The notes beneath the pieces were generated by a model. That model was not told where the DNA came from. It worked only from the letters and a program-made list of their open reading frames with translations, and made no database searches. Shown here piece by piece: positions 28,200 to 33,615 of a stretch of 64,000 nucleotides of DNA; the stretch's first letter is position 1, and the number at the start of each line of letters is the position of its first letter. Source of the DNA: a virus; the IMG/VR virus record IMGVR_UViG_3300048014_000353, positions 1-64,000 of that record; one strand, given 5' to 3'. The translations under genes and the position numbers were made by a program.

Positions 28200-29291
28200 C
28201 TAGCCGCCGAACTCGCGGAAGCTGTCCTCGACCAGGTCGACGCAGAGCTCGTCGAGCTTCGCGCGATCGGGCGCGTCGGGAAGCTTGGACGCCTTGGCGA
28301 TCGCGTCGAGCTCCGCGTTCTCGCGGTCGCTCCACTCGATGAGCTGCTCGATGGTCCAGGCGCCCCGTCGGATCGCGAGCAACTCCTCGGCGTCCGGTCG
28401 TCGCACGAGGACCTTGCCGGTCGTGAGGATCTCCCGGCACATCTTCAGTAGCCGAACGAGATGCATGCCGTGCTTGAGATCGTAGCCGAACTTGGCCTCG
28501 AGCTCCGCGCGGGCCGCATTTCGGTTCACCTTCCACGCCTGGTACTGTTCCCACTCTTTGTGCCGTGCGTGGTACTGGCGCTCCCGGTCGAGAAGCTCGA
28601 TGAAGTTGGACTCGAACCCGACCGCGCGCGCCGCGCCGATCCAGAGGTCACCGGTCGTCACGTGCATCTCGGCGATGGAGTCGGCCATCTTGTCCGCGAT
28701 GAGGAGGCGGCTCGCGGGGTCAAGGTCTCCGACGAAGTCGAGGTTCCAGTCCTTCAGCTTTTTCTCGACCGCGGATCGGGCGGCGGCGATCTGGTCCTGC
28801 GGGATGACCGTCCGCTCGGGTAGACCGAACTCTGCACGCGTCGGCGGCGCCGTCATCGGGTCGCGCAGCCAGCGCATGTGCCCTCGGATTCGGCGAAGCT
28901 GCCCGGTCGCGTACCCCGCGTAGGTGTGCTTGGCCTTCTTCGAGAGGAAAAGATCGCGCGCCGCACGCAGACGCTCACCGAGCGGCGTCATCACGAGCAC
29001 GTCGCTGTCCTCGACGAAGAGGATCTCAAGTACGTTCGGGTTGCAGTCGGCCGCGAGCTGCATGAACTTTCGCAGGCCGAAGATGGTCACGTCCGGCGAC
29101 TTCATCTCGGCCTGCTCAAAGGCGTGCGCGAAGCCGTGGAAGTAGCTGCTCGGCGGGATGGCAACGCCGCGGAAGTCTTCGTCGCTGGTCGCGATGTTGG
29201 TTCCATAAGCATGCGATCCGTGCCGTGCGAAGAACACCGTGCGGCGCGTGAGCCATGGCAGGTTTCCCGTGTACGGAATGCAGTACGTCAT
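28200..29291 (-). CDS. RlaP-type nucleotidyltransferase (DNA polymerase beta superfamily)
   Basis: 363 residues from ATG 29291. The N-terminal GSHAYGTNIATSDEDFRGV has the GS...DxD pattern of the polymerase-beta fold, and LAADCNPNVLEILFVED follows, typical of the YcgL/RlaP (RNA-ligase-associated) family. Helical C-terminus (FGYDLKHGMHLVRLLKMCRE). RlaP proteins are linked by gene neighbourhood to RNA ligases and are thought to take part in RNA repair; an RNA ligase is encoded at 6537-7499. Confidence 0.8.
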   Translation of the reverse strand: MTYCIPYTGNLPWLTRRTVFFARHGSHAYGTNIATSDEDFRGVAIPPSSYFHGFAHAFEQAEMKSPDVTIFGLRKFMQLAADCNPNVLEILFVEDSDVLVMTPLGERLRAARDLFLSKKAKHTYAGYATGQLRRIRGHMRWLRDPMTAPPTRAEFGLPERTVIPQDQIAAARSAVEKKLKDWNLDFVGDLDPASRLLIADKMADSIAEMHVTTGDLWIGAARAVGFESNFIELLDRERQYHARHKEWEQYQAWKVNRNAARAELEAKFGYDLKHGMHLVRLLKMCREILTTGKVLVRRPDAEELLAIRRGAWTIEQLIEWSDRENAELDAIAKASKLPDAPDRAKLDELCVDLVEDSFREFGG

Positions 29292-29563
29292 GCGGCTTTC
29301 CGTTCCTTGTCCTTCACGACCGCGACCATACGGCACTCCGCGCACGACTTGAAGCCGACCGTGACCGGGTCCCCGCAGCGGCAAACGCCGACGCGCTTCT
29401 TGTTCCAGTAGGAGCGTCGGTTGGATGCGCGTCGCGACTTGCGACACGGAGCACAGAGACACGCGTCTCCGCGCGCGATCGGGCGCGCGCCGCACTCGCA
29501 CATCCCCGCGGCCCTCATCCGAGCGCGGAACGACTTGACGTATTCGTAGGGCATCGCGCTCAC
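29288..29563 (-). CDS. Zinc-finger protein, 91 aa
   Basis: Start GTG 29563 overlaps the stop of the downstream phosphoesterase half (GTGA). Cys-rich: CECGARP, CLCAPCRK, CRCGDP and CAECRM would bind two zinc ions; otherwise very basic (KSRRASNRRSYWNKKR). Such proteins are common in phages and bind nucleic acids. Confidence 0.55.
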   Translation of the reverse strand: MSAMPYEYVKSFRARMRAAGMCECGARPIARGDACLCAPCRKSRRASNRRSYWNKKRVGVCRCGDPVTVGFKSCAECRMVAVVKDKERKAA

Positions 29564-29851
29564 GGTCGCCTCCGGAGAAATTCGCGAATCTCGTCGATGG
29601 ACACCGGCGCGTAGGCCCACTGATCGACCCCCACGTTCAGCATCCCGTTCTGGCTCGCCGGCTCGATGCGGTACCTCCAGAGTTCGTGGACGTGTCCGTG
29701 GAGAAGCGCGCGCCCGGGAGCCATCGGCGGCCGGTACTCGGGGTAGCGCGGCTCCGCCGAGTGGTCGCCCACCGCAGGAAAGTGGCAGAGGCGAAACTCC
29801 TCGTAGTCCACCCAGTTGCCGTGGATGGTCGCGAAGCCGAGCCGGTGGTAG
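29560..29851 (-). pseudogene. C-terminal half of a metallophosphoesterase, split by a transposon
   Basis: Reads YHRLGFATIHGNWVDYEEFR then ALLHGHVHELWRYR (metal-binding GHVH) and MLNVGVDQWAYAPVSIDEI, the C-terminal half of a calcineurin-like phosphoesterase. The N-terminal half with the other metal ligands is at 33616-33896. Joining the two at the duplicated GGTGGTAG restores one reading frame (...ADRYHRLGFATIHG...), about 185 residues. The intact enzyme is of the small phage/bacterial phosphodiesterase type. Confidence 0.85.
29844..29851. repeat. Target-site duplication, left copy
   Basis: GGTGGTAG, repeated at 33608-33615 outside the right terminal inverted repeat. Eight bases fits IS1-type transposition. 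Confidence 0.85.
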
Positions 29852-29913
29852 GGCACTGGTCGGTTTTGAAATGACGCGGCTCGTGCCAACGGCGGCGGGG
29901 CACTCTCTCGCCC

Positions 29914-30237
29914 ATGGCGATCCTGTTGGAGCGGGTCACGTGGCGGAAGGCGAAGCAGTTCACGGCAGGGGCGACGACGCCGGACCTTACGGCGGACGAA
30001 GTCGCCAACGCGAGGCGCGCGCTTCGTGTCCTACGGACACGTCACGGTGGCACCCGCGCGCTCGCGGACGCGATTGGCGTAAGAGTCGCGACAGTACAGA
30101 ACGGGATGAAACCACGTCGGAAGGTCGGCGTCGGGCTCGCGCTACGTCTTGCGCGGCTCGCGGGCGTGCCGCTGGAGGACGTACTTAGTGGGGCTTGGCC
30201 GAAGCATGGCTCGTGCCCTATGTGCGGCCGCTGTTGA
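29914..30237 (+). CDS. HTH protein with C-terminal CxxCxxC
   Basis: 107 residues from ATG 29914. The helical part LTADEVANARRALRVLRTRH and the HTH TRALADAIGVRVATVQNGMK, followed by ALRLARLAGVPLEDVLSGAW, is a Cro/XRE-type domain; the tail ends GSCPMCGRC. Located just inside the left end of the transposon, so probably a regulator of transposition or passenger genes. Its 3' end overlaps the convergent ribbon-helix-helix gene by 20 bases. Confidence 0.6.
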   Translation: MAILLERVTWRKAKQFTAGATTPDLTADEVANARRALRVLRTRHGGTRALADAIGVRVATVQNGMKPRRKVGVGLALRLARLAGVPLEDVLSGAWPKHGSCPMCGRC

Positions 30238-30421
30238 TGCCGCGCACGATGCGGGCGCCCGTTACCAGCGTCTCCCTAGCCCACGAAGTTACCGGCTTTC
30301 CAGCTAGACGCGCGGCCTCGACGATTTCGCCACGTTCCTCTTCGCTCAATCGCAAGGTGAACACCGTTGCGCGTGCTTCCCCCTCTGGCAGAGGGGGGCG
30401 CCCCATGCGCTTCGCCTTCAC
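30218..30421 (-). CDS. Ribbon-helix-helix (CopG/Arc-type) protein in the transposase operon
   Basis: 67 residues from GTG 30421 overlapping the transposase stop (GTGA). MGRPPLPEGEARATVFTLRL is the beta strand and SEEERGEIVEAARLAGKPVT, SWARETLVTGA the two helices. It may regulate the transposase promoter. It differs from the two paralogous RHH proteins at 58 kb and 63 kb. Confidence 0.65.
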   Translation of the reverse strand: MKAKRMGRPPLPEGEARATVFTLRLSEEERGEIVEAARLAGKPVTSWARETLVTGARIVRGINSGRT

Positions 30422-31263
30422 TGGGCATCCGTCCGGCTAAGCGCGGCATCCAGCAGCTCGTCCATGCTCCAGACGTGCTGCGCGACGCCAGCGGCCATCG
30501 CGGGCGTGCAGCGAATCGTCGAGTGGATCCGGCAGAGGTTGTAGTGCGCGAAGTGCAGCGCGACAGCGGCGCCATGGTTTTCCAATTTCTTCGAGTGCGC
30601 GTTCGTCAGCCGCGTGAAACGGCGGATCTGCATCCTCATCGTCAAGTTCTGGCGCTCGACGTAGCTCGTCGAGACCAGATCGGCGTCCGGCGAGCCGTAG
30701 ATCGGCGTCTTCTCCGTCGAAGTCACCCGCGGGGGCGAGTACCTACCACTGCCGGCGGCCTCGGCCTCGAACTCCTTTACGATCTGCGCGTAGTGCACGC
30801 CGCGCGACGCGAAAGCATCGCCGATCGCGTTGACGTACATGCGCAGACCGTCGGTGCTGATCTGCACGCGGTAGCGGAGGCGTGATGCGAGGTCCGAGAT
30901 GAACACGTTCGTCGTCTCCGCGTTGCGCTTGCCGGTGAGGAAGCACGGGATCAGCTTCGTGTCGGCGTCGATCGCGACATACGTCCACGTGTCGCCCACG
31001 CGCGAATCGTCGTCGTTGTCGGTCACACGCCTCTGCTTCTTCTGCACGAACGCCCACAGCTCGTCGATCTCCAGCCGCTTGCACGAGAGGTCACGCATCG
31101 TTTCGTCGAGCAGCGCCGCGCAGCCGTCGCCGACGCGCACGAGCAGACTGAGGACCGTCTCGCGACTCACGCCGACGAGACGCTCCGTGCCGCGCACGGA
31201 GACACCCTCGACGAGCGCGCTGAGGACCGCGATCTGCTTGGAGCGGGGGAGCACGTTTGCCAT
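30418..31263 (-). CDS. DDE transposase, IS1-family type
   Basis: 281 residues. N-terminal HTH (VRGTERLVGVSRETVLSLLV), then the DDE catalytic core: first Asp in EIDELWAFVQKKQ, strand WTYVAIDADTKLIPCFLTGK, second Asp in VQISTDGLRMYVNAIG and Glu in YVERQNLTMRMQIRRFTRLT. The C-terminal ALHFAHYNLCRIH is typical of IS1-like enzymes. The 8-bp target duplication fits this family. No frameshift, so it is probably active in cis. Confidence 0.85.
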   Translation of the reverse strand: MANVLPRSKQIAVLSALVEGVSVRGTERLVGVSRETVLSLLVRVGDGCAALLDETMRDLSCKRLEIDELWAFVQKKQRRVTDNDDDSRVGDTWTYVAIDADTKLIPCFLTGKRNAETTNVFISDLASRLRYRVQISTDGLRMYVNAIGDAFASRGVHYAQIVKEFEAEAAGSGRYSPPRVTSTEKTPIYGSPDADLVSTSYVERQNLTMRMQIRRFTRLTNAHSKKLENHGAAVALHFAHYNLCRIHSTIRCTPAMAAGVAQHVWSMDELLDAALSRTDAQ

Positions 31264-31349
31264 GAACTAAACGTAACACGATAACAAACGACCGCAAGCG
31301 CAAAACATCGTTTTTTATGGCGTACGGAATGGTTTTTGGAATAATTTAG

Positions 31350-31378
31350 TTGACCTTTCTCTCTGGATTCGCCAAAGT
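31350..31378 (+). promoter_or_regulatory. Promoter of the passenger genes (leaderless)
   Basis: -35 TTGACC (31350-31355), 17-bp spacer, -10 CAAAGT (31373-31378), then 7 bases to ATG 31386. It lies in an AT-rich stretch (31264-31350) between the divergent transposase and passenger genes. No operator palindrome of the element's regulon here. Confidence 0.5.
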
Positions 31379-31385
31379 CCTCAAA

Positions 31386-32012
31386 ATGCAGACCGTTCGC
31401 AGCGATGGGCGCCTGGAATACCTCAAGGAGCCGGACGTTCGTGCGAGGCTGGACAGGCATCACGACGCGCTTGCGAGGCTTGTCCGCGAGGCAAACGACC
31501 TCTGGGACCTCCACCTTGGAAAGCACTTCTCGCAGCCACTATCGCGGACGCGGAAGCAGTGCGTGTCGAACGCCTACTACTGCGGCGCCAAGGCCGTGTT
31601 TGGCGAGACGTCGGGCATCCGACTCGTGGAGGAGTCGGAGCGGCTCATGCTGGTAATCGACGACTCGTTCGTTGTGCGGTTCAAGTTCCTCAACCGGGGC
31701 AAGCGCACGATCAACTACCCCACGTCGGCGTCGCTCAAGATGGACGCTCAGTTGCCGATCCGTATCGCCGGGATCGAGCGCCTGCCTCGCGTTGTTCTTG
31801 GCTACACGCTCGGCGGGGTACCGCTGGCGCTCGACGGCACCTTCGTTCTGTTCGCCGTCGACAACAAGCCGATGTGGCACTACGGCATCGACGGCAAGGA
31901 CGCCGAGTCGCTTGTTCTCCCGTTCGAGGACGAAGACATGCCGGCCGAACACGAGTTTCGGATGGTGGGCGACGCGGATGAGTCCGACGAGTCTGCGAAG
32001 AAGGGCGGGTAA
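31386..32012 (+). CDS. Transposon passenger protein, 208 aa, partner of the XRE/ImmA-type gene
   Basis: Start ATG 31386. Helical N-terminus (DVRARLDRHHDALARLVREA), then a mixed part with MLVIDDSFVVRFKFLNRGKR and RLPRVVLGYTLGGVPLALDG, which could be an RNase-like or barrel fold. The acidic end is FEDEDMPAEHEF. It precedes and is probably co-transcribed with an XRE/ImmA-type gene, a pairing seen in toxin-antitoxin and phage-defence cassettes, but the fold is not recognised, so the toxin role is inference. Confidence 0.55.
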   Translation: MQTVRSDGRLEYLKEPDVRARLDRHHDALARLVREANDLWDLHLGKHFSQPLSRTRKQCVSNAYYCGAKAVFGETSGIRLVEESERLMLVIDDSFVVRFKFLNRGKRTINYPTSASLKMDAQLPIRIAGIERLPRVVLGYTLGGVPLALDGTFVLFAVDNKPMWHYGIDGKDAESLVLPFEDEDMPAEHEFRMVGDADESDESAKKGG

Positions 32013-32026
32013 CCAGGAGGCGGAAG

Positions 32027-33091
32027 ATGCCGAACGTCAACAAAGACATGCTCGTGCTCGCGCGCGAGTCGAGGCGCCTTACGCAGGAAAATCTGGCAAA
32101 GCTGGCAGGAGTTGGGCAGGGAACGATTTCAAAGGCCGAGGGCGGCTCTGGCCCAAGCGACGATCTCGTTGCTGCGTACGCGAAGCACCTCCGGTACCCG
32201 GTCGAGTTCTTCTACGAGACCCCGCCATCGACGCGGCTGCCGGTCGCCTTCTACCGGAAGAAGAGGTCGGTGGACGTGAAGCACCTTCGCGCCATCGACG
32301 CGCAAATGCGCATCTTGCGCATGCACTTGGACAAGCTCCTTCGATCGGTGGAGGCGCCTCCGATGCGGGTCCCTCTGGTGAACCTTCTCCGCGACTATCG
32401 CGGCTCGGCGAGCGACCTCGCTCAGGAGTTGCGGCTGCGGTGGCACGTGAAAAAGGGGCCTATCGAGAACATGACAAAGCTCGCCGAATCGCTCGGCGTC
32501 TTCGTCATTCGTTGGCACTTCGACACGCCGGATGTCGATGCGCTCAGCATGCACGAGGATGGCTTGCCTCCCGTCATCGTGATCGATGCAGCGATGTCGG
32601 GCGACCGCATGCGTTTCACGATCGCGCATGAACTCGCGCATATCATCATGCACCACCATCTCGCGCTCCCAGGGGCCGACTACGAAGCAGAGGCAGACGA
32701 GTTTGCGGCGGAGCTGCTGATGCCGAGGGACGAGATAAGGCCATTCCTGCGCGGACTGACCGTCGAAAAGCTCGCGCACCTGAAGGCTCACTGGCGCACC
32801 TCGATGGCGTCACTTCTACGTCGGGCCGGCGACCTGGAGGCGATCTCCGAGAGCCAGAGCGCAAAGCTCTGGTCGGTCATGTCCCACCTTGGGTTCAAGC
32901 GAAGTGAGCCCGTCGACGTTCCGCAGGAAGAGCCGACGCTCGCGAGGAACCTAGTCGCCTTCCACATGAAGCGGCTCGGCTACAGCGCGAAGGAAATGAG
33001 CTTGATGCTTCCTTGGAGCGAAGAGGAATTCGCTCGCACATATCTGGACGGCGCCACTCGCCGCGCAGGACTCCGAGTCGTGAAGTGGTGA
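32027..33091 (+). CDS. XRE-ImmA/IrrE fusion (HTH + DUF955 zinc peptidase)
   Basis: 354 residues. HTH at residues 8-60 (RESRRLTQENLAKLAGVGQG, TISKAEGGSG), a linker helix domain, and then the metallopeptidase: MRFTIAHELAHIIMHHHLAL with HELAH, followed by YEAEADEFAAELLMPRDEIR supplying the third ligand Glu. Proteins of this build are the antitoxin/regulator partners in several stress and defence cassettes, where the peptidase cleaves a repressor. It ends before a strong terminator. All catalytic residues are intact. Confidence 0.85.
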   Translation: MPNVNKDMLVLARESRRLTQENLAKLAGVGQGTISKAEGGSGPSDDLVAAYAKHLRYPVEFFYETPPSTRLPVAFYRKKRSVDVKHLRAIDAQMRILRMHLDKLLRSVEAPPMRVPLVNLLRDYRGSASDLAQELRLRWHVKKGPIENMTKLAESLGVFVIRWHFDTPDVDALSMHEDGLPPVIVIDAAMSGDRMRFTIAHELAHIIMHHHLALPGADYEAEADEFAAELLMPRDEIRPFLRGLTVEKLAHLKAHWRTSMASLLRRAGDLEAISESQSAKLWSVMSHLGFKRSEPVDVPQEEPTLARNLVAFHMKRLGYSAKEMSLMLPWSEEEFARTYLDGATRRAGLRVVKW

Positions 33092-33095
33092 AAAC

Positions 33096-33129
33096 AACGC
33101 CCGAGCGAGGTGACTCGCTCGGGCGTTTT
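33096..33129 (+). terminator. Rho-independent terminator
   Basis: AACGCCCGAGCGAG / CTCGCTCGGGCGTT (33096-33109 / 33114-33127) form a perfect 14-bp stem with a GTGA loop, then TTTT. The complement also ends in T residues, so it may work in both directions. Confidence 0.9.
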
Positions 33130-33224
33130 GGAAGCTTCGCCGTTCACTGGCGTGATTGAGGGGCTCTACATCCCGAGGCCCGCGGCTGGTACCCGCGTGG
33201 GGTTCGATTCCCGAAGCTTCCGCC
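33130..33224 (+). tRNA. tRNA-Sec-like / allo-tRNA-like gene, possible CUA anticodon
   Basis: Foldable as a long tRNA. Acceptor GGAAGCTTC (33130-33138) / GAAGCTTCC (33213-33221), 9 bp; T arm GGG-TTCGATT-CCC (33200-33212), 3 bp, so a 9+3 branch of 12 bp; long variable arm CGCGG-CTGGTAC-CCGCG (33181-33197); D arm CGTTCAC-TGGC-GTGATTG (33141-33158), long stem with one mismatch and a four-base loop, as in tRNA-Sec; discriminator G followed by CC. The anticodon loop CTCTACA (33164-33170) would give CUA, reading UAG. The anticodon stem is weak (AGGGG / TCCCG has an A-G mismatch and a G-U pair) and position 37 is C, so the anticodon and functionality are uncertain. It starts at the last T of the terminator. 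Confidence 0.5.
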
Positions 33225-33231
33225 TCCGATT

Positions 33232-33540
33232 CTAACTCCGCTTCTTCGCTTCGTCCGCCAGGATCGAAGCGCGCACGGCCATGACCGGCCCGTCCACGGG
33301 CGGCACGCCGAGGATGGCCTTGAAGCGCCGCCGCGTGCCCTCGACGAGAACGCTCCAAGCATACGCACGCGTCGCGCCGCTCGGATGCCCAGCGAGCGCG
33401 AAGACCTTCACGGCGCCCTGCCAGACGATCTCGCCCTTGAAGCGCTCGTCCACCTCGACGGTCTCGACGTAGGTCGCTGGTACCCCGTGGAGATGCTCGA
33501 CGGCCTCGCGCAGTTCGTCGATCGAAACATCGTCGTCCAT
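33232..33540 (-). CDS. Transposon passenger protein of unknown function, 102 aa
   Basis: Acidic N-terminal helix (SIDELREAVEHLHGVPATYV), beta-rich middle (FKGEIVWQGAVKVFALAGHP; AYAWSVLVEGTRRRFKAIL). No family recognised. It is transcribed from inside the right end of the transposon toward the tRNA-like gene. Confidence 0.5.
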   Translation of the reverse strand: MDDDVSIDELREAVEHLHGVPATYVETVEVDERFKGEIVWQGAVKVFALAGHPSGATRAYAWSVLVEGTRRRFKAILGVPPVDGPVMAVRASILADEAKKRS

Positions 33541-33607
33541 GCGGGCGAGTCTACGCGAGCGCGGACGATGCGCAGCGCGTCACGAAAGTTCAAAACCGAC
33601 CAGTGCC

Positions 33608-33615
33608 GGTGGTAG
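33608..33615. repeat. Target-site duplication, right copy
   Basis: GGTGGTAG, identical to 29844-29851. Confidence 0.85.

Follow-up and report, generated by a model that had tools for sequence, protein, structure and literature searches.

Introduction

Allo-tRNAs of the 9/3 kind are distinguished by a 9-bp acceptor, a 3-bp T stem, a long D stem and a long variable arm (PMC7590224), and both natural allo-tRNAs and amber variants of them work in Escherichia coli (PMC7609411, PMC7590224). A review (PMC7609411, covering Mukai et al. 2017) describes 8/4 and 9/3 forms with many anticodons, including ochre for the 9/3 forms, as well as tandem irregular tRNAs and an allo-tRNA(UAU) pseudogene overlapping a transposon-related gene. 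A natural amber suppressor is also described from Aeromonas salmonicida A449, where it is a tRNA-Trp variant used by 21 genes (PMC2556355). The subject of the present analysis is a 9/3 tRNA-like gene at positions 33130–33222 (+) of a 64,000-nt stretch of viral DNA, hereafter the window (positions 1 to 64,000 of the 138,550-bp IMG/VR record IMGVR_UViG_3300048014_000353), which lies inside an insertion sequence (IS)-like transposon of the IS1 type. We consider it most probable, at roughly 0.6, that this gene is a passenger allo-tRNA of the transposon that would be charged with serine and would read UAG with weak suppression.

The gene resembles described allo-tRNAs in its 9/3 12-bp branch (8/4 in two relatives, L253 and L254), its long variable arm, G73 and an anticodon unfit for a Ser-type body, and the tandem arrangement of such genes is likewise seen in L253/L254. 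It differs from them in its placement within IS1-type transposons with exact ends and duplications, in its occurrence in Myxococcota, Acidobacteriota and phages, in a stop-reading loop kept across relatives and in conserved partner genes, termed here P102 and RHH. With the A. salmonicida suppressor it shares being a natural bacterial UAG-reading tRNA, a property predicted here from the anticodon, whereas it is transposon-borne, has a Ser/Sec-like body and has no known target. The host elements, for their part, have the IS1-type DDE transposase, terminal inverted repeats and 8-bp duplication of IS1-family insertion sequences, but are larger (about 1.5–5.6 kb), carry passenger genes, a tRNA in a minority of cases, and encode the transposase in a single frame.

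Whilst a link between allo-tRNAs and transposons has been guessed earlier, the novelty here lies in defining the element family; no reports of IS1-type transposons with stop-reading tRNAs were found in the open-access literature. Allo-tRNAs have so far come largely from metagenome reads, whereas one class is here tied to a defined, widespread transposon family, so that what they are for can be tested in individual elements whose ends are exact and whose stop-reading anticodon is under selection. If active, such genes would mean that mobile DNA spreads nonsense suppressors between bacteria and phages, with a bearing on the retention or reassignment of stop codons and on how gene finders handle such genomes.

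Structure of the tRNA-like gene

The structure was read directly from the 95-nt stretch 33130–33224. The acceptor (GGAAGCTTC, 33130–33138, with GAAGCTTCC, 33213–33221) forms nine Watson–Crick pairs and is followed by the discriminator G73 at 33222; CCA is not encoded. The T stem is made of GGG (33200–33202) and CCC (33210–33212) around a standard TTCGATT loop, and the variable arm has 5 bp (CGCGG, 33181–33185, with CCGCG, 33193–33197). In the D arm, TCAC (33144–33147) faces GTGA (33152–33155) across a TGGC loop, and the stem as a whole comprises four clean pairs, a mismatch and a G.U, with 4–6 pairs in relatives, a long D stem being a trait of allo-tRNAs and tRNA-Sec (the selenocysteine tRNA). 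The anticodon arm (GGGG, 33160–33163, with TCCC, 33171–33174) has a stem of 4 bp and closes the loop CTCTACA (33164–33170, +), in which the anticodon CUA (34–36) occupies 33166–33168 and position 37 is an unusual C. The 9-bp acceptor, 3-bp T stem, four-base D loop, long variable arm and G73 listed in a first-pass annotation of this DNA can therefore all be read in the sequence.

At default settings ARAGORN does not report the gene, and at a 90% threshold it reports it as CUA. The Rfam tRNA-Sec model (RF01852) matches it from end to end but, at 33.3 bits (E 5e-5 over 351 bases), falls short of the 47-bit gathering threshold; tRNA models thus do score the gene, whereas negative scores with all of them would, according to the annotation, have counted against it. 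Likeness to bacterial tRNA-Sec extends to the overall shape, the GGAAG acceptor start, G73, TGG in the D loop and the long variable arm, whereas the anticodon is CUA and not UCA, the branch has 12 bp (9+3) and not 13 (8/5), and the anticodon stem is of 4 bp. With this anticodon, this branch and a score under the Rfam cut-off, an identity as tRNA-Sec is not upheld.

As the acceptor is palindromic (GGAAGCTTCC) and the folding energy is ordinary (z −1.4, not significant), the single sequence proves little and the relatives decide. Taken alone, these two properties would fit a palindromic 9-mer posing by chance as an acceptor; the relatives refute this by covariation, in that their non-palindromic acceptors of the same length still pair, and leave chance a negligible probability.

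Relatives, covariation and the anticodon loop

Scanning of viral contigs with a loop-plus-T-arm pattern revealed one further 9/3 gene, in L165, approximately 270 bp upstream of an IS1-type transposase, whilst 80 loci were recovered from genome contigs when the window transposase served as the query. A covariance model built from two sequences and rebuilt with six then added L340, L253, L254, L383, L384, L385 and L386. The resulting set of ten 12-bp-branch sequences consists of the window gene and nine relatives, many from metagenome-assembled genomes (MAGs), all nine being in or beside IS1-type elements. The closest locus, L166, from a Myxococcales MAG (transposase 84% identity), is a sister transposon flanked by a separate duplication (CCGTCGCC); it has a homologous gene of the 9/3 type, with anticodon UUA. 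Own duplications also accompany the genes of L340 (AATATTAG; UUA), L355/L383 (AATCTATT; CUA) and L356/L384 (CGTGCGTC; UUA); L357/L385 has CUA, L288/L386, from Acidobacteriota, has UUA, and L253 and L254 are tandem tRNA genes, both UUA. The ends are offset by one base in L386, and L253, L254, L385 and L237 are without solved ends. The local order tRNA, P102, transposon end is common to L383 and the window. In L348 and L349, the closest transposases of G266 (71% identity), no tRNA is recognisable, and the passenger is therefore not universal even near the window's element. The exact anticodon-arm pattern had 25 matches in viral contigs, none recognisable as a tRNA, and BLAST of the element against phages and plasmids gave nothing useful.

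Across 16 pairs in the ten sequences, 98.1% of 158 cells are standard, against 47–63% in slid controls, and the covariation score of 0.52 (0.09–0.19 when slid) was reached by no shuffle; fitting the alignment to the model biases it towards structure, yet the margin is large. Both sides have changed in nine of the 16 pairs, supplying the compensated covariation on which the first-pass annotation had made the gene's standing depend. Furthermore, the D and variable arms, which are absent from the model, are still paired with different sequences (compare L253 and L254).

These comparisons also bear on whether the transposon has picked up a tRNA-Sec or tRNA-Ser gene from a host and now carries it as a decaying pseudogene, for which one could cite the weak anticodon stem, C37, the score under the Rfam cut-off and a true tRNA-Sec elsewhere in G739, G149 and G318. 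Compensatory changes and an invariant loop over ten copies are not what such a relic would display; the tandem copies in G002 diverge while pairs and anticodons stay, and four of seven gene-carrying bacterial genomes checked have no tRNA-Sec over the cut-off, although MAGs may be incomplete. The annotation had left room for decay on account of the anticodon stem, but since the short stem recurs in intact relatives decay is unlikely, and a captured pseudogene is regarded as very improbable.

The loop reads C32 U33 Y34 U35 A36 C37 A38 in nine of the ten sequences and CTCTATA in L165, the consensus CT(C/T)TA(C/T)A being common to all ten; outside the loop only 13 of 76 columns are invariant, and the sequences average 61% identity. 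Four of the ten have C at position 34 and six have U, such that all would read UAG or UAA, and U33, as looked for in a nonsense suppressor, accompanies the stop-complementary anticodon in every case. This restriction of position 34 to C or U, with U33 invariant, strengthens the annotation's reading of CTCTACA as a CUA anticodon directed at UAG. A shifted loop reading UAC (Val) was rejected, as U33 would then vary (C in 4/10) and L253 and L254 have a clear 6-bp stem and 7-nt loop; an antisense role of the loop was discarded too, complementary 7-mers outside the tRNA not being recurrent. As judged from these alignments, the window gene is a selected, mobile, putatively stop-reading tRNA of the 9/3 allo-tRNA kind, and neither a relic nor a tRNA-Sec.

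tRNA genes across IS1-type elements

Of 67 elements of this type, most could be assigned ends, the repeats beginning with GGTAGTG or a similar sequence and the duplications being of 8 bp. A sample blind to the anticodon, comprising 82 transposase loci from Myxococcota, Acidobacteriota and Alphaproteobacteria analysed with ARAGORN, yielded 14 tRNA calls, all on the upstream side of the transposase, from 11 distinct elements (sign test 0.001). UUA or CUA accounted for eight of the 14 calls, whilst neither anticodon occurred in the ten tRNA genes that flank the earlier element set (Fisher 0.003; a small comparison that is not fully independent). The density of tRNA genes inside the 67 elements (8 in 215 kb, versus 10 in 454 kb of flanks) was set aside as an argument, being unimpressive alone; position and anticodon type are what stand out. 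At the level of sequence, then, a structured, selected tRNA-like gene with a stop-reading anticodon is a recurrent passenger of IS1-type transposons, and the presence of the same kind of tRNA in related elements of unrelated bacteria suggests that mobile DNA spreads stop-reading tRNAs for some reason.

The bodies of the IS-borne tRNAs are of Leu type (A73; L200 and L253a), Ser type (long arm, G73; L234, L237 and L338) or Ala type (G3.U70 with A73; L170 and L339), and the synthetases for these three types, SerRS included, do not read the anticodon. Enlarged loops, reported by ARAGORN as four-base anticodons, occur in the IS-borne tRNA genes L344:2763-2838 and L188:4492-4577. A protein family starting 'SPxYP...LGY', with no Pfam or NCBIfam match (L237:3994-4947, L234:4196-4948 and L170:3899-4723), is enriched in tRNA-bearing elements (6/29 versus 2/61, p 0.012). 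Upstream of the transposase gene (tnp) in L200 and L223, likely tnp promoters were seen by eye with a palindrome between −35 and −10 (AGCGAGCGCTCGCT and AGCAACCGGTTGCT), which is probably an operator.

Probable charging and function

Serine is the most likely amino acid for the window tRNA because of its long variable arm, G73 and the indifference of SerRS to the anticodon, and we infer from this body and loop both Ser charging and weak suppression. Transcription would be low-level, probably by read-through of a strong hairpin directly upstream, no promoter being recognised. This 14-bp GC hairpin with a T tail (33096–33129, +) abuts the 5′ side of the tRNA and is terminator-like on both strands; taken with the lack of a promoter-like site, it leads one to expect low expression. 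The transcript would then be trimmed by host RNase P, receive CCA, be charged by host SerRS and be delivered by EF-Tu, giving a weak UAG read-through limited by C37 and the short anticodon stem. The cost would be small in a GC-rich host with most genes ending in UGA; likely phage genes in the window themselves end mostly in TGA (34, versus 7 TAG and 2 TAA), and weak reading of UAG would thus be cheap for them also. The stop codons read through may lie in the small regulators of the element or in genes of the host or the phage.

Several observations weigh against an allo-tRNA that decodes stops. Efficient suppressors carry a purine at position 37, whereas C37 is found in nine of the ten sequences and U37 in L165, and this base, the 4-bp anticodon stem and the failure to find a promoter-like site before the window tRNA would all fit weak or absent decoding. 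Conservation of the loop is partly ascertained in the members found by model, as the search models held the loop, and for L165, itself found via the loop, there is an alternative fold with a UAU anticodon, which is the one called by ARAGORN. Related elements have tRNAs with UGC, GCU, UAC or CGU anticodons or with enlarged loops. Some irregular allo-tRNAs, moreover, are not chargeable by E. coli enzymes (PMC7609411). Finally, matching internal stops are absent from the transposase, P102, RHH and HTH genes of tRNA-bearing elements, with the sole exception of L339, where one in-frame TAG lies in the transposase (L339:3006) and the element's tRNA has UUA; this is a candidate for self-suppression or simple decay.

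Several of these points could also be explained if the tRNA-shaped RNA were selected with an irrelevant anticodon, as a processing or end-forming signal at which RNase P cuts behind the hairpin, or to insulate the transposase gene from the cargo. A strong hairpin lies directly upstream of the tRNA in most relatives too, no promoter of its own is recognised, many IS-borne tRNAs, with varied anticodons, immediately precede the transposase gene in the same orientation, and C37 and the short anticodon stem would fit as well. Such a role does not account for the anticodon loop being the best-kept part outside the T loop, nor for position 34 alternating only between C and U; the window tRNA points away from the transposase, and in L200 and L223 what looks by eye like a separate tnp promoter follows the tRNA. 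We consider it unlikely. A stop anticodon would also keep a tRNA out of decoding were it to serve as a decoy or replacement where tRNAs are attacked by a toxin, nuclease or defence enzyme that the elements meet or themselves encode, and such elements do have toxin–antitoxin-like and restriction cargo, a toxin–antitoxin link being suspected in the review already cited (PMC7609411). Yet the cargo differs among sister elements that keep the tRNA, and nothing in the window's element was recognised as an enzyme that targets tRNAs, making this quite improbable.

For the stop-reading allo-tRNA that we favour, targets were sought within the elements. An all-against-all recoding search was noisy from antisense frames, and focused core-gene and third-position GC content (GC3) tests were used instead. 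By frame-specific GC3 and composition, none of the cargo genes of the window, L166, L383, L384, L385 or L386 is convincingly interrupted, and the read-through extensions of P102, RHH and the transposase vary in length (3–380 codons) and show no conservation. Recoding of the element's own cargo, as envisaged in the first-pass annotation, is consequently not borne out, the L339 TAG being the only matching in-frame stop in core genes. The stop codon of RHH is UAG or UAA in 12 of 13 tRNA-bearing elements and in four of seven without a tRNA (Fisher p 0.10), a bias that is suggestive only. It would suit a switch in which the tRNA reads through the UAG or UAA of a small repressor-like protein, and perhaps of host genes, thereby releasing or tuning transposition or the expression of cargo, a proposal that we regard as rather doubtful.

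The host transposon and its surroundings

The IS1-type transposon spans 29852–33607 (3,756 bp) and is bounded by the inverted repeats GGCACTGGTCGGTTTTGAA and TTCAAAACCGACCAGTGCC and by an exact 8-bp target duplication (GGTGGTAG, 29844–29851 on the left and 33608–33615 on the right); these exact ends confirm the annotation's placement of the tRNA inside a transposon. The flanks look like two halves of a phage metallophosphoesterase gene split by the insertion, the right flank having a weak match to that family and the left being assigned by reading frame. The transposase (30418–31263, −; 281 aa) matches PF03400 above the cut-off, whilst NCBIfam IS1 (NF033558) is its best match yet lies below the cut-off. 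It is followed by the RHH-like small protein (30218–30406, −; 62 aa), whose stop is TAG, and a small HTH-like protein (29914–30237, +; 107 aa) is kept in sister elements. The cargo consists of a 208-aa protein without assigned function (31386–32012, +) and a repressor/antitoxin-like HTH and ImmA/IrrE (M78) protein (32027–33091, +), no ImmA cargo being found in the other viral contigs searched. As cargo of the IS1-type element in viral contig L165, there is an MmeI-like restriction–modification gene (L165:869-3736, −).

Between the tRNA and the right end, and convergent to the tRNA as in L383, lies P102 (33232–33540, −), a conserved 102-aa protein with a confident structure prediction (pLDDT, the predicted local distance difference test, 92.7) of alpha-beta4-alpha type. 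No convincing family match was found, nor any fold match to the model in the PDB, and a role as an RNA-binding protein was consequently not adopted, despite the confident model.

Beyond the transposon, and outside the window, the phage encodes 29 ordinary tRNAs in a separate cluster (G000:127821-132245, corresponding to L387:322-4745), with no suppressor among them. An RlaP-like RNA-repair nucleotidyltransferase is encoded by a phage gene near the transposon (28200–29501 of the window, −).
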